Positions 34,230-40,073 of a stretch of 64,000 bases of DNA are shown one piece after another. This stretch comes from Fluviicola sp. (lineage in GTDB: Bacteria > Bacteroidota > Bacteroidia > Flavobacteriales_D > Crocinitomicaceae). The position numbers and the translations under genes are program-made. The notes below the pieces were generated by a model, which saw only the letters and a list, made by a program, of their open reading frames with translations, searched no databases and was not told the DNA's origin. The stretch lies in NCBI RefSeq assembly GCF_029266855.1, contig NZ_JAQSWB010000009.1:124001-188000 (forward strand). Direction: 5' to 3'. Position 1 is the first letter of the stretch. Each line of letters opens with the position of its first letter.

Positions 34230-35765
34230 ATGCTGGTAAGAACATTTGGAAGTGCGGTATTTGGTATTGATGCAACAACTATTACAATTGAAGTAAACAT
34301 TGCAAACGGAGTTAATTTCACGCTGGTAGGTCTGCCCGACAAAGCAGTTCAGGAAAGCCATCAGCGAATTAAAGCTGCACTAAAAAACAATAACCTCAAT
34401 TATCCCGGAAAAGAAATAACAGTCAACATGGCCCCTGCCGATATCCGGAAAGAAGGATCGACTTTTGATTTGGCCATTGGAATCGGAATCCTGGCTGCTT
34501 CGGAGCAAATTTCTTCCGTAAAATTGGAAGACTACATGTTGCTGGGTGAATTGTCTTTGGATGGGACACTTCAGATCATCAAAGGAGTTTTACCAATCGT
34601 CATGCAGGCTAAAAAAGATGGATTCAAGGGAATCATTCTTCCCAAACAAAATGAATCCGAAGCTGCAATCGTTGAAGGCATTGACGTTTACGGAATGGAA
34701 AACATGCAGGAAGTCATTGATTTCTTAAACAATACCCGGCCATTTGTTCCTGCCAGTTTTAACATCGAAGAAGAATTCAAGCGTCAGTTCCATGAAAACG
34801 AAGTGGATTTCAGGGATGTAAAAGGTCAAAGTGCGATCAAAAGAGCATTCGAAATTGCAGCGGCGGGCGGACACAATGTAATTTTGATAGGGCCGCCCGG
34901 AGCAGGAAAATCCATGCTTGCCAAACGCTTACCGACGATCCTTCCCCCGATGAGCATCGACGAATCACTGGAAACGACAAAAATTCATTCGGTAGCCGGG
35001 AAAATCGGGAAAAATACCGGTTTGGTAACTCAGCGACCTTTCCGCAAACCTCATCATACCATCTCAGATGTAGCGCTTGTGGGCGGAGGTTCTTATCCGC
35101 AACCCGGAGAAATTTCACTTGCGCACAACGGAGTTCTGTTTTTAGACGAGCTACCCGAATACAAACGACAAGTTCTGGAAGTAATGCGGCAACCTCTGGA
35201 AGACCGGACAGTGACAGTTTCCCGCGCGCGCTTCTCCGTTGATTATCCTGCCGGTTTTATGTTGGTTGCTGCCATGAATCCTTGTCCGTGCGGCTACTAC
35301 AACCATCCCGAAAAAGAATGCGTCTGTGCACCCGGAACTGTTCAGCGTTATTTGAACAAAATATCCGGACCGCTTTTAGACCGGATCGACCTGCATGTGG
35401 AAGTTACTCCCGTTTCTTTTGACGACCTGGCGTTCAATGCACCGACCGAGACCAGTGCTGAGATCCGGGAACGCGTCATTCAGGCTCGATTGGTCCAGCT
35501 CAACCGTTACCAAGGTTCTCAAACTCATTGCAATGCCATGATGCAGCGCAAAGAACTGACCGAATTTTGCGAAATCTCCCCGGAAAGCAAACAATTGCTG
35601 AAGCATGCAATGGATCGTTTAGGACTTTCTGCCAGAGCTTATGACCGCATTCTAAAAGTTGCACGGACAATTGCAGATCTCAACGGATCGAATGGTATTG
35701 AAACCGACCATCTGTCGGAAGCCATTCAATTACGAACCCTTGACCGGGAGAATTGGGCAGGATAA
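34230..35765 (+). CDS. comM: YifB/ComM-family Mg-chelatase-like AAA+ ATPase
   Basis: A hexameric helicase-like protein that, in naturally transformable bacteria, extends branch migration during integration of incoming DNA. The 511 residues show the N-terminal ComM domain (FTLVGLPDKAVQESHQRIKAAL), an AAA+ core with Walker A GPPGAGKSML (221-230), the HHTISDVALVGGGSYPQPGEISLAHNGVLFLDELPE block, zinc-binding-like cysteines in NPCPCGYYNHPEKECVCAP, and the C-terminal Mg-chelatase domain (LSARAYDRILKVARTIADL). The last residues, TLDRENWAG, are echoed in a second copy of the gene's 3' end at 37721-37743. Confidence 0.94.
   Translation: MLVRTFGSAVFGIDATTITIEVNIANGVNFTLVGLPDKAVQESHQRIKAALKNNNLNYPGKEITVNMAPADIRKEGSTFDLAIGIGILAASEQISSVKLEDYMLLGELSLDGTLQIIKGVLPIVMQAKKDGFKGIILPKQNESEAAIVEGIDVYGMENMQEVIDFLNNTRPFVPASFNIEEEFKRQFHENEVDFRDVKGQSAIKRAFEIAAAGGHNVILIGPPGAGKSMLAKRLPTILPPMSIDESLETTKIHSVAGKIGKNTGLVTQRPFRKPHHTISDVALVGGGSYPQPGEISLAHNGVLFLDELPEYKRQVLEVMRQPLEDRTVTVSRARFSVDYPAGFMLVAAMNPCPCGYYNHPEKECVCAPGTVQRYLNKISGPLLDRIDLHVEVTPVSFDDLAFNAPTETSAEIRERVIQARLVQLNRYQGSQTHCNAMMQRKELTEFCEISPESKQLLKHAMDRLGLSARAYDRILKVARTIADLNGSNGIETDHLSEAIQLRTLDRENWAG
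35741..35763 (+). repeat. comM 3'-end repeat, copy 1
   Basis: The last coding bases of comM (GAC CGG GAG AAT TGG GCA GGA, then TA). They match copy 2 at 37721-37743 at 19 of 23 positions, 1980 bases away. The pair brackets the Crp-like/SDR/ICMT genes. Confidence 0.75.
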
Positions 35766-35917
35766 AATACGGATTGCGACGAGCATTACTTTGTAATTCC
35801 AGTAAAAAATCAGAAATAACTCTATAGTTTTGAATAATTAAAAACCGTGTTTGCTATTCATATTGAAGTAACTTAAACTTACAAAAAAATGCAAACCGTG
35901 TCAGTAACGCAGAAAAA

Positions 35918-36457
35918 ATGGACAATCTAAGCGCACTAATTTCTGAATTGGCAACATTCGGAGTTGAAAAAAGCTATATCCCAAACCAAATTTTTATTCA
36001 TGAAGGACAAACACCTCGTAAATTTGCCATCGTAAAATCAGGGTTGTTCAGGTATTACTATGTAACGAGTGAAGGTAAAGAGTACACCAAAGGATTTATG
36101 CCTGAGAACAATATTATCGGCTCTTATTCAGCAATGATTACTGGCTCACCGTCATCTTTTATTATAGAAGCTCTGGAAGAGTCTACCGTTATAGAAATCA
36201 CATATAATCAATGGATAAAGTTAAGGAACGAAAACAATCATTGGGATAAGTTGCTTATTGCCATTCTTGAGAAAGGTTACACCACAAAAGAAAAAAGAGA
36301 AAGGGATTTGTTGCTCCTGAATGCCGAAACCCGTTATTTGAATTTTTTGAAAGAGTATCCTAATTTAGATAATAGAGTAACCCTGACCTTAATCGCTTCC
36401 TTTTTGGGTATTCAGCCCGAATCGTTAAGCCGAATCAGAAAAAATCTATCCACCTAA
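35918..36457 (+). CDS. Crp/Fnr-family transcriptional regulator
   Basis: A 179-residue regulator with a cyclic-nucleotide-binding-like beta-roll (FIHEGQTPRKFAIVKSGLFRYYYVTSEGKEYTKGFMPENNIIGSYSAMITGSPSSFIIEALEESTVIEI) and a C-terminal helix-turn-helix (VTLTLIASFLGIQPESLSRIRKNLS). The cAMP-contact Glu and Arg of true CRP are not conserved, as is usual for Bacteroidota members. It starts the three-gene cassette, 63 bases before the SDR gene. TAGTTTTG at 35825-35832 may be its -7 element, with a leader of about 80 bases. The region reads as more AT-rich than comM. Confidence 0.88.
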   Translation: MDNLSALISELATFGVEKSYIPNQIFIHEGQTPRKFAIVKSGLFRYYYVTSEGKEYTKGFMPENNIIGSYSAMITGSPSSFIIEALEESTVIEITYNQWIKLRNENNHWDKLLIAILEKGYTTKEKRERDLLLLNAETRYLNFLKEYPNLDNRVTLTLIASFLGIQPESLSRIRKNLST

Positions 36458-36519
36458 CCTACATCAATTTTCAACCTATCTCCTTTCGCTAGTTTTGCCA
36501 TATAAGTGAATCAACAATT

Positions 36520-37269
36520 ATGAATTTATCTGGTAACACAATTTTGATTACAGGCGGAAGTTCCGGCATAGGACTCGAATTATGCAAACAACTTGTACAT
36601 AAAAAGAATACCGTAATTATTTGCGGTCGCTCACTGGAAAAACTCCAGGAAGCCAAATCTCAGTTCCCTGAAGTTGAAATCATTCAATGTGATTTGGCAG
36701 ATAAAAAGCAATGTGAAGAATTAATTCATCGGGTAAAAAGCAACTATTCCAAAATCAATGTTTTGATTAACAATGCAGCCATCGTAAACAAAATAGATTT
36801 TATCGGAACCGAGAATGCTTTGGAAATGGCTGAAAATGAAATCGCCATCAACTTCCTCGCCCCTTTGAACCTGATAAAAGAGCTTTACACCACTTTGCAA
36901 CAAAATCTCCATCCGAATATCATCACTATTACAACCGGCTTGGTTTACACCCCAAGAACTGATTACCCTTTTTATTGTGGCACGAAAGCAGCTTTACATT
37001 CATTTACCCAAGTTTTACGCAAGCAAACAGAGAATGACAAGGTAAAAATTACCGAAGTTTTATTCCCATCCGTTAGCACACCCTGGCATAAAGGCAATCC
37101 CCCCAAAATGGCAATTTCACCCGAAAAAGCAGTATCTCAAATGTTGAAGGGATTGGAGAAGGAAAAAGCTGAAATTAAAGTGGGAAAAGTGAAATTGTTA
37201 TATATAATATCCCGATTTGCTCCGGGATTTGCTTTTAAAAAGGTCAATAGCATTCAAAACGAACAGTAA
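36520..37269 (+). CDS. Short-chain dehydrogenase/reductase (DltE-like SDR)
   Basis: A 249-residue NAD(P)-dependent oxidoreductase. The cofactor loop TGGSSGIG (11-18), NNAA (84-87) and the active-site Tyr152-x3-Lys156 (YCGTK) are present. The residue usually occupied by catalytic serine is a threonine here (TITTGLVY, near 139), which some SDRs tolerate. The C-terminus ends in a basic, partly hydrophobic segment (KVKLLYIISRFAPGFAFKKV), suggesting membrane contact. The gene is 5 bases upstream of the methyltransferase gene. TAGTTTTG (36490-36497) could serve as its own -7 element. Confidence 0.88.
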   Translation: MNLSGNTILITGGSSGIGLELCKQLVHKKNTVIICGRSLEKLQEAKSQFPEVEIIQCDLADKKQCEELIHRVKSNYSKINVLINNAAIVNKIDFIGTENALEMAENEIAINFLAPLNLIKELYTTLQQNLHPNIITITTGLVYTPRTDYPFYCGTKAALHSFTQVLRKQTENDKVKITEVLFPSVSTPWHKGNPPKMAISPEKAVSQMLKGLEKEKAEIKVGKVKLLYIISRFAPGFAFKKVNSIQNEQ

Positions 37270-37274
37270 GCACA

Positions 37275-37721
37275 ATGAGAAAACTATTGCCTCCAAACCT
37301 ATTCCTGATTTGCTTTTGTATTATGGTTGTTTTGAATTATTTAATTCCTTTTGCATCAATAACATTCTACCCACTAAATCTTTCAGGGTTTGGGTTAATC
37401 ATTATCGGCTTAAGCATGGCATTTAGGATAAGTAAACTTTTCAGGATGTTCAACACTGAAATACACACTTTTAAAACACCCCAAAAGCTGGTTACCCATG
37501 GACTTTTCAAATACAGTCGAAATCCGATTTATCTGGGCTTTGTAATTGCCTTATTCGGAGTATGGATTCTTTTATCAGGAAACTTATTTTCCCTATTTGG
37601 TGTTATGTTCTTTTTCCTGATTGCAAATTTCGGGTATATACCTTACGAAGAAAAACAGATGGAGACAATATTCGGACAGGAATATTTGGCTTACAAAAAT
37701 AAAGTAAGGCGCTGGATTTAG
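37275..37721 (+). CDS. ICMT/PEMT-like membrane methyltransferase
   Basis: A 148-residue inner-membrane protein of the isoprenylcysteine carboxyl methyltransferase family. About four helices are predicted. The SAM-binding signature is in the C-terminal half: LVTHGLFKYSRNPIYLGFVI, then YEEKQMETIFGQEYLAYKNKVRRWI, matching the conserved HG.Y...RNP.Y and EE..L...FG..Y..Y...V.R pattern. Bacterial members methylate lipids or unknown small molecules, so the substrate is left open. It ends the cassette, and its stop codon overlaps by one base the second copy of the comM 3' end. Confidence 0.88.
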   Translation: MRKLLPPNLFLICFCIMVVLNYLIPFASITFYPLNLSGFGLIIIGLSMAFRISKLFRMFNTEIHTFKTPQKLVTHGLFKYSRNPIYLGFVIALFGVWILLSGNLFSLFGVMFFFLIANFGYIPYEEKQMETIFGQEYLAYKNKVRRWI

Positions 37722-37743
37722 ACCTGGAAAACTGGGCCGGATA
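37721..37743 (+). repeat. comM 3'-end repeat, copy 2 (comM remnant)
   Basis: Read in the frame LDLENWAG-stop (37718-37744), it repeats the comM C-terminus LDRENWAG-stop. Of four base differences from copy 1, three are synonymous, so both copies were once under coding selection. No other comM sequence is attached. Confidence 0.75.
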
Positions 37744-37755
37744 GTATTGAGAATG

Positions 37756-39933
37756 CTAGTCTTTAACGAAACTCAAAGTAAGCATTTCAGTATCTGTTTG
37801 AATTTTCAGGAAATACATTCCGTTCTTAAGCTCAGAAATATCAATTGTATTTTCAACTAAACGAGGTTTAATAATTTTCCCATCAAGAGATAAAATCGAC
37901 AAAACCGACAAGGGTTGATCAGTTGTGTTTAAAATCCGCAAAACGCTTGATGCCGGATTCGGGTAAAGCACAAAAGGAGCCGGTCTTGTGTTTTTATCCA
38001 CCGAAAGTGTATTTAAAGCCAGTTGAACTGCAGCATAAGCATTGATTTTCCCCATCCCCCATTTGGTGTCTCCCGGAGCAACTATGTTACCGGTATAATT
38101 GTCCAATCGGGCGGTGGTTTTAATGATGTTTTTTACCTGCTGACTCGACAAATTCGGATTTGCATCCAGTATCAGGGAAACAATACCTGCAACACATGGT
38201 GTAGCCATTGATGTTCCCGAAAATCGTGCAAAATCGTAATTCTTGTTATTGAAGGCTATTGTAGCAATAGCCGTATATACCGCATCGGTATAGGAAGAGA
38301 TTGACGAAGCAACACTTACACCCGGAGCAGCAATATCGGGCTTCATCGTTTCATTATGTAATGGTCCTATACTCGTAAATGATGCCGGTGCTCCCCCGAT
38401 CGTATTCCCCGAACCGCTAACATAACTCGAAGCATATGCAGCAACAGTTATCACACTATTCGTACAACCCGGTTCCCCTATTGCATAGAACGAGTCGCCG
38501 CTGATCCCGTTTGTTCCGTAGGCAGTGAAAGTTTGACCGAAATTCCCTGCCCCGTTGGTTAATTCGGGAAGGTTCCAATAATGAACGGTTCCATCAATTG
38601 CCGAGCCGGTAAGTACAATTCTGTTACTCGTATTCAAAGAACGAATGCGAATTTGCATCCCGGGTTTCCCATTAAGCGGATTAGCCGTTTCTGAAGAAAT
38701 AGTAAAAACAATCGTGTCGTTTCCGGTAACCAGAATGGAGTCTAAATATCCGGTAGTTGATGTAGAATAATAGGGACTTGTAACCAGCAATGTTCCGAGG
38801 TTATTGTACACAGAGATCTTATTGGAAAAATTATGCCCCTGCTCCCCCCATGCCGTGATACATTCTCCCCACATATTCGGATTGGCCGCATACGAATAAA
38901 AACCGACCAGTGAGGTAAATAAGTTATTGTTAAAGGTTTTCTTGATATGAAAATTCGTTCCATTGTTGTTTCCTGCAGCACCGACAAATACAACATGATT
39001 CGTTTCGCTCAGTTCATCTATCGCCTCGGAAAGTAATGAGAATCCATCCAGGCTTCCCATTTGATTGTAATAAACTCCCCAGCTCATATTTACAACCAAT
39101 CGTTTTCCGGCAGCTTCGGCTTTATCCTTCATCCACACAAATGCGTCAATTGCAGAGGCCTGATCTATGTAGAATGAGGTAAACAAATATTGAGATTCAA
39201 AGCCAAATCCACGGTAAACTGATCCGGCACCGCTTCCTCCGGCTATACCTGCAACGTGAGATCCGTGAGTATGGTAGCTATAAATGTTTGACGTATCTGA
39301 TCCTGCAGCAGCTAATTCTGTCGGAGTATCATACTCCACACCATAATTTTGACCAACAGGAAGATTTCCGGTTTGTTTATATTGGTCCCAGGCTGCATAA
39401 ATTCTCGAATGCGTCAGTAAGGTGTCGTAAAACATCGGATGCCCATAATCAAATCCCCAATCCGTAACACCGATCAAAATATCTTTTCCTGTAAAAGCAC
39501 CTGGTAAATTGATTCCCCTTTGGACGCTGTCTGCTCTTGTATCCCTTACCGCCTTATCAAGCTGGGGGATAATTTTACCCGGAACCTCCAGGTAGGAATA
39601 AAACTGCGAGAAATCGATGTTATATAATCTTTCCAGAGGTACTTTCATCGTAGTGATTTTCCCCACTGAACTACCTATAAGAATGTTATTTTCCGGTATG
39701 ATATTCCAATCGCAATTCGAAAGCCGTTTACCATAAAGCGAAACATACCAGATTCCGGAGATCTTATAAACGGGAAATGCATCTTCCACCTCTTTAGTAA
39801 CCCCAATCTCGTTCTTGAAGGTTTTCGAATAGCGAATCAATTTATCCCAGCGCACCTGGTTACCTGCACTTTGATTTTGAGCGAATAAAAAAGCGGTTGT
39901 AAAAACAAATGCAAGTAGTAATAAGTGCTTCAT
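37756..39933 (-). CDS. Secreted S8 (subtilisin-like) peptidase with type IX sorting domain
   Basis: A 725-residue serine protease exported through the Sec system and then the type IX system. Starting at ATG 39933 it has the signal peptide MKHLLLLAFVFTTAFLFAQ, a propeptide-like region, and a catalytic domain with Asp158 (GVTDWGFDYGHP), His223 (THGSHVAGIAGG) and Ser575 (FSGTSMATPCVAGIVSLI). The C-terminal sorting domain of about 80 residues (YPNPASSVLRI...GMYFLKIQT) is the kind PorU would remove. A large insert of about 200 residues lies between the His and Ser motifs. A -7 element TATCTTTG is on the minus strand at 39979-39986. Confidence 0.93.
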   Translation of the reverse strand: MKHLLLLAFVFTTAFLFAQNQSAGNQVRWDKLIRYSKTFKNEIGVTKEVEDAFPVYKISGIWYVSLYGKRLSNCDWNIIPENNILIGSSVGKITTMKVPLERLYNIDFSQFYSYLEVPGKIIPQLDKAVRDTRADSVQRGINLPGAFTGKDILIGVTDWGFDYGHPMFYDTLLTHSRIYAAWDQYKQTGNLPVGQNYGVEYDTPTELAAAGSDTSNIYSYHTHGSHVAGIAGGSGAGSVYRGFGFESQYLFTSFYIDQASAIDAFVWMKDKAEAAGKRLVVNMSWGVYYNQMGSLDGFSLLSEAIDELSETNHVVFVGAAGNNNGTNFHIKKTFNNNLFTSLVGFYSYAANPNMWGECITAWGEQGHNFSNKISVYNNLGTLLVTSPYYSTSTTGYLDSILVTGNDTIVFTISSETANPLNGKPGMQIRIRSLNTSNRIVLTGSAIDGTVHYWNLPELTNGAGNFGQTFTAYGTNGISGDSFYAIGEPGCTNSVITVAAYASSYVSGSGNTIGGAPASFTSIGPLHNETMKPDIAAPGVSVASSISSYTDAVYTAIATIAFNNKNYDFARFSGTSMATPCVAGIVSLILDANPNLSSQQVKNIIKTTARLDNYTGNIVAPGDTKWGMGKINAYAAVQLALNTLSVDKNTRPAPFVLYPNPASSVLRILNTTDQPLSVLSILSLDGKIIKPRLVENTIDISELKNGMYFLKIQTDTEMLTLSFVKD

Positions 39934-40073
39934 AATTTTCAAGTTAGACTCTCGTGTTCGGTAATGGTAGAGATTGTACAAAGATAAAACTTTGGACAGT
40001 GAAAGCTAATTATTAAAGTGGCTTTCTATCGGAACCATCCAATTGAGGAATACGGACCGGGAAATTGAACAGC

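Follow-up and report, generated by a model that had tools for sequence, protein, structure and literature searches.

How did three genes come to lie between two copies of the 3′ end of comM in a Fluviicola sp. genome? The question was raised by a preliminary description of a 64,000-nucleotide (nt) stretch of contig NZ_JAQSWB010000009.1 (positions 124,001 to 188,000 of the forward strand), hereafter the window, to whose first letter all coordinates refer. The last coding bases of comM recur behind genes for a Crp-like regulator, a short-chain dehydrogenase/reductase (SDR) and an ICMT-type methyltransferase. Below, G000 is the genome of the window, other G numbers are comparison genomes and L numbers are fetched loci. 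We find that the second copy is, on the comparisons given below, a relic of a comM 3′ end and that the three genes are an insertion, which we place with a probability of about 0.58 as a one-off acquisition through homology at comM and a microhomology joint.

The features on which the argument turns are the following.

34230..35765, + strand: comM/yifB, encoding an Mg-chelatase-like AAA ATPase (PF01078, PF13541, PF13335, TIGR00368); its final 30 nt make up copy 1
35742..35764, + strand: copy 1 of the repeat, the comM coding end (GAC..TA), by sequence comparison
35766..37714, + strand: inserted segment, with no counterpart between comM and the subtilase gene in G007, G012, G002 and G001
37715..37744, + strand: copy 2, a relic comM 3′ end with its stop codon (26/30 to the G013 comM end; matrix score 30.0)
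37716..37721, + strand: microhomology ATTTAG at the right junction, common to the end of the ICMT gene and to that of comM, from overlapping BLAST matches and the ends of ICMT relatives
37756..39981, − strand: secreted subtilase with a type IX secretion system (T9SS) sorting tail (PF00082, PF18962), adjoining comM at empty sites

Two comM ends border the segment

Copies 1 (35742–35764) and 2 (37721–37743) are identical at 19 of 23 positions, all but one of the four differences being synonymous, exactly as first described, with copy 1 lying one base to the right of where it had been placed. Direct repeats of the comM gene end thus stand at both borders of the segment. The stretch of copy 2 that resembles comM begins at 37715/37716 and runs through the stop codon at 37742–37744. 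The description of three enclosed genes held for open reading frames (ORFs) of at least 90 amino acids, of which exactly three (Crp-like, SDR and ICMT/PEMT) lie between the copies on the + strand; the last stop codon, said to abut copy 2, falls at 37719–37721, within the extended copy. When the stop codon is included, four of the five differences over 24 nt are synonymous (P 0.007, site counts), favouring two comM alleles as the source of the copies. The comM ORF itself is whole, at 511 amino acids, and is not interrupted by a transposon backbone.

The comM search gave a match in 56 of 59 genomes, G000 included. The 30-mer of copy 2 is identical to the comM end of the congener G013 at 26 positions, and in a BLAST search with 37700–37760 that end covered 37716–37751 (36 nt, 89%, E 2.4e-7), extending 7 nt beyond the stop. 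Agreement with the comM end of G000 itself (20/30) is unexceptional, as 10 mismatches are also found downstream of comM in 6 of 49 other genomes. The regions behind comM in 53 of the 56 comM-bearing genomes (all except G028, G046 and G058), 1,436,422 positions in total, were compared with all 53 comM ends; copy 2 was the best match, at 4 mismatches, ahead of a site in G019 with 8 (22/30) and no comM-like reading. A matrix built from the comM ends of seven congeners, G000 excluded, gave 37.9 for copy 1 and 30.0 for copy 2, with 11.9 as the next-highest score in the window; the best non-comM site among 3,466,304 positions of other loci (both strands, some stretches counted twice) scored 13.1, and the sites above that score were comM gene ends by place and translation (best 40 of 52 sites). 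None of 3,000 Markov simulations of the inserted stretch attained the score of copy 2. By these measures, copy 2 is a relic of a comM 3′ end.

The three genes fill a site that is empty in four congeners

comM is present in 12 of 13 congeners, and in four of these 12 (G007, G012, G002 and G001) the subtilase gene lies directly beside it, bearing out the preliminary proposal that an insertion should have left empty sites in relatives. The gap from the comM stop to the subtilase stop is 12 nt in G007, 12 nt in G012 and 31 nt in G002 (that of G001 was not used because its subtilase is split in the assembly); from the stop of copy 2 in G000 it is 11 nt. The three-gene cassette was found behind comM in none of the 12 congeners, so the contrary case envisaged earlier, in which all relatives carry the same genes there, does not hold. 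The only ICMT-like matches in congeners (G004 and G012) and the only SDR match at E 1e-50 (G003) are on other contigs. The G+C content of the inserted segment is 35.8%, versus 46.4% for comM and 40.0% for the window. Read against the empty sites, the cassette is inserted DNA that separates comM from the subtilase gene.

Across the 12 congeners (L032–L043) and the window, the content of the interval behind comM varies by species, comprising nothing, the subtilase, a small gene plus the subtilase, other genes, or the cassette. In G006 a single small gene separates comM from the subtilase; G013, G005 and G004 have no subtilase behind comM, and G010, G009, G011 and G003 have other genes there. Judged from sequence, the genes that bound the interval opposite comM look like metal-uptake ABC genes, and one congener gene within it is presumably ORF6N-like. 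The remaining congener, G008 (about 99% complete), had no comM match at E ≤ 0.001, reflecting either loss or an assembly gap.

The right junction joins an ICMT end to a comM end

In the BLAST search with 37700–37760, ICMT-type matches in four loci covered up to 37701–37722 (E 0.019 to 0.8); these are individually weak, yet each lies at the 3′ end of an ICMT gene. They overlap the comM-type match by up to 7 nt, the overlap being ATTTAG(A), 6–7 nt long. Among five ends compared, ICMT relatives end in RRWI-stop or near it, reading TGGATTTAG in L187 and L190, TGGATTTAA in L188 and TGGATGTAG in L189, with L087 running on beyond the RRWI-stop point; the G013-like comM end reads AATTTAGACC. From these two sets of matches, the far junction is a chimera of an ICMT gene end and a comM end.

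Proposed acquisition by homology and microhomology

These features are best explained by a single event of the kind known as homology-facilitated illegitimate recombination (HFIR), the reading to which the probability of about 0.58 belongs. Incoming DNA would have recombined at comM by homology on one side, and the other side would have been joined through the ATTTAG(A) microhomology that a comM end shares with the region around the methyltransferase stop, a sequence of steps that would leave one comM whole and the leftover comM end as a non-coding scar. HFIR is described as combining a homologous anchor with short joints of 3–10 nt (PMC6382021, PMC4437187). The 6–7 nt common to both partners fit such a process, and fit the joint length of about 3–10 nt expected of it. 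The genome encodes DprA and ComEC as well as comM; DprA and ComEC lend weak support, because most control genomes, E. coli included, have both. A table in PMC8459023 lists YifB-family mutants among those of Riemerella whose natural transformation was lost or decreased.

Several observations weigh against this explanation. No donor genome carrying comM together with the Crp-like, SDR and ICMT genes was found, and no foreign tract is visible in comM, the presumed anchor, whose nearest relative is that of the sister species G007. Copy 2 and its spacer are nearest G013 and not G007, and either copy may be the native one. Part of the synonymous excess could have arisen after insertion, as copy 1 is under constraint.

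The donor searches covered relatives of the cargo as well. The best ICMT relatives have 44–46% identity, and SDR relatives have 40–59% among the matches listed, with many more distant. No SDR relative among the matches listed lay beside comM (tblastn of comM against fetched loci with flanks of about 1.5 to 5 kb). An ICMT octapeptide scan of genome contigs gave no relative, an SDR octapeptide scan of viral contigs gave no match, and plasmid matches were distant.

Whether comM itself carries a trace of the exchange was judged from its divergence among congeners. comM of G000 is nearest G007 over its last 60, 120, 240, 480 and 960 nt, so copy 1 looks vertically inherited. Over codons 440–480, G005 (87.5%) and G002 and G006 (both 85.0%) exceed G007 (84.2%), and other congeners exceed G007 in 40-codon windows elsewhere in the gene too. 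No clear breakpoint was seen along comM in this mosaic comparison, which has low power because changes at synonymous sites have come close to saturation from one species to another. The segment may, as suggested earlier, have brought its own comM end; the last 60 to 960 nt give no foreign sign in what is, at this high divergence, a weak comparison. On the other side of the segment, G007 is nearest over 60 of the last 68 alignment columns of the subtilase (74.4%), the last 8 codons alone favour G002 and G006 (19 versus 16 of 24 nt), and no clear foreign tract was seen at the comM-side end of the subtilase gene.

Alternative origins

The chimeric junction might instead have been made in another lineage and later entered G000 by homologous recombination on both sides, leaving copy 1 as the native end. 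The proximity of the G000 comM end to G007 is consistent with such a history, as is the 89% match of copy 2 and its spacer to G013 over 36 nt. We regard it as doubtful, given that the informative bases are few, that no donor was found and that the subtilase side lacks a clear foreign tract.

An integrase acting in trans could also have inserted the segment at the comM 3′ end, in which case the two copies would be attL and attR and the segment would have restored comM with an end of its own. A repeat at both ends, a gene 3′ end as target and an intact gene would all be expected of this route, and three tyrosine-recombinase matches are present elsewhere in the genome. It is nevertheless unlikely: the copies differ at 4 of 23 positions, the comM likeness begins where ICMT ends, and a family search of the three ORFs of the segment (at least 90 amino acids, + strand) gave no recombinase or transposase match. 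Moreover, none of 52 other genomes was found to carry a second such end behind its comM gene, in a scan of stretches of 0.27 to 20 kb that is blind to heavily decayed relics and to insertions longer than the stretch examined.

A third alternative, that the G000 comM end was itself duplicated at insertion, by target duplication or template switching, and then drifted, would agree with the vertical appearance of that end and with a codon in copy 1 that reads GAG, where all seven panel congeners have GAA, and that looks derived. We consider it very unlikely, because four of the five differences are synonymous and because a duplication of 29–30 nt without a transposase is a signature of no process that we know of.

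The preliminary description had further suggested that the three genes could be a small transferable unit entering at the comM 3′ end and had called for a search for other cargo between two comM ends. The three genes of the segment include no recombinase, the stretches scanned behind comM in the 52 other genomes show no second end and no other cargo between two ends, the comM end of G000 stays nearest that of G007, and the 12 congeners lack the cassette behind comM, so that this proposal is not supported. Its broader form, in which very small cassettes without an integrase would be mobilised in trans and attach at comM 3′ ends throughout the family, this one being the first seen with both borders, is most improbable.

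A chance match, for which the 20/30 agreement reached in 6 of 49 other genomes might speak, is ruled out by the 26/30 identity to G013 (22/30 at most elsewhere), the matrix score of 30.0 (at most 13.1 at non-comM sites elsewhere) and the distance of just 11 nt between copy 2 and the stop of the subtilase.

The cargo resembles a small regulon

The genes carried by the segment, and a candidate regulatory site among them, are as follows.

35918..36457, + strand: Crp/Fnr-like regulator with a cNMP-binding fold (PF00027), homologues of which precede SDR relatives
36454..36469, + strand: candidate operator of the Crp-like regulator, degenerate (5 mismatches, chance level alone), proposed from its position relative to the next gene
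36520..37269, + strand: SDR (PF00106), with motifs invariant in the SDR alignment
37275..37721, + strand: ICMT/PEMT-family membrane methyltransferase (PF04191, PF04140), ending in RRWI-stop like its relatives

The Crp-like regulator and the SDR are a recurrent pair. A search of 395 genomes of the phylum, not counting G000, gave 10 SDR relatives with E 1e-55 or better, and in every one the gene upstream of the SDR is Crp-like, as it is in two of three further relatives (L227 and L229; not L228). Among the 80 loci of a genome-contig scan for SDRs, most of them distant, a Crp-like gene is adjacent in L108, L110 and L112, and a weaker Crp-like homologue lies 0.5–1.1 kb upstream of the SDR in L113 and L116; L107 and L109 have good SDR matches that begin at the contig edge and are uninformative on the upstream gene. 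In G484 (L187), a Crp-like regulator directly precedes an ICMT relative, and no SDR match was found within that locus.

A candidate operator recurs at these loci. In all 17 examined (the window, L097–L106, L108, L110, L112, L227, L229 and L187), the best TTAACATAGGTCAATG-like site within 400 nt upstream lies 50–58 nt before the next ATG. In 13 of the 17 loci the site departs from the consensus by no more than 2 mismatches, versus at least 3 in 1,700 shuffles, for a consensus that was picked by eye from the same 17 loci; the site in the window has 5 mismatches and, except for its position, does not rise above chance. The operator-like site lies across or after the 3′ end of the Crp-like gene, and the next gene is the SDR or, in L187, the ICMT gene. 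Its position across loci suggests that the Crp-like protein controls the gene behind it through this putative operator.

The SDR and methyltransferase genes are 5 nt apart, a spacing that suggests cotranscription here. TGGSSG[IL]G, NNAA and Y152/K156 are invariant in the SDR alignment, and we presume that these motifs have their usual meaning in SDRs. The cargo is probably a small regulon, in which the Crp-like protein would bind a predicted site at the 3′ end of its own gene and control the SDR and the methyltransferase; judged from the families alone, a role in membrane or lipid modification is likely.

Relation to known systems

AbaR-type islands in Acinetobacter are transposon islands that cut comM. 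The Fluviicola segment shares with them the name of the target gene; it differs in that comM is whole and no transposase is found among the three genes. The likeness to HFIR is closer, as a segment was gained without a recombinase of its own, with an inferred homologous gene on one side and microhomology on the other; unlike HFIR, the event is inferred here from a scar and was not observed, no donor is at hand and no foreign tract is detectable in comM. PMC5635113 describes many gene-turnover hotspots without recognisable mobile elements, with core genes beside hotspots recombining more. The interval behind comM resembles these core-gene-flanked hotspots in that it differs between congeners; it is one small interval in 13 genomes, and the likeness concerns differing content, not hotspot statistics or mobility functions.

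Together, these observations describe a genuine, well-marked insertion scar, the mechanism behind it being most likely of a known and ordinary kind, familiar from laboratory work. The locus appears to preserve a natural scar of foreign-gene capture beside a conserved DNA-uptake gene, in which the empty sites, the relic end and the microhomology joint are all readable, and it suggests a route by which small regulated operons may be gained without a mobile element.

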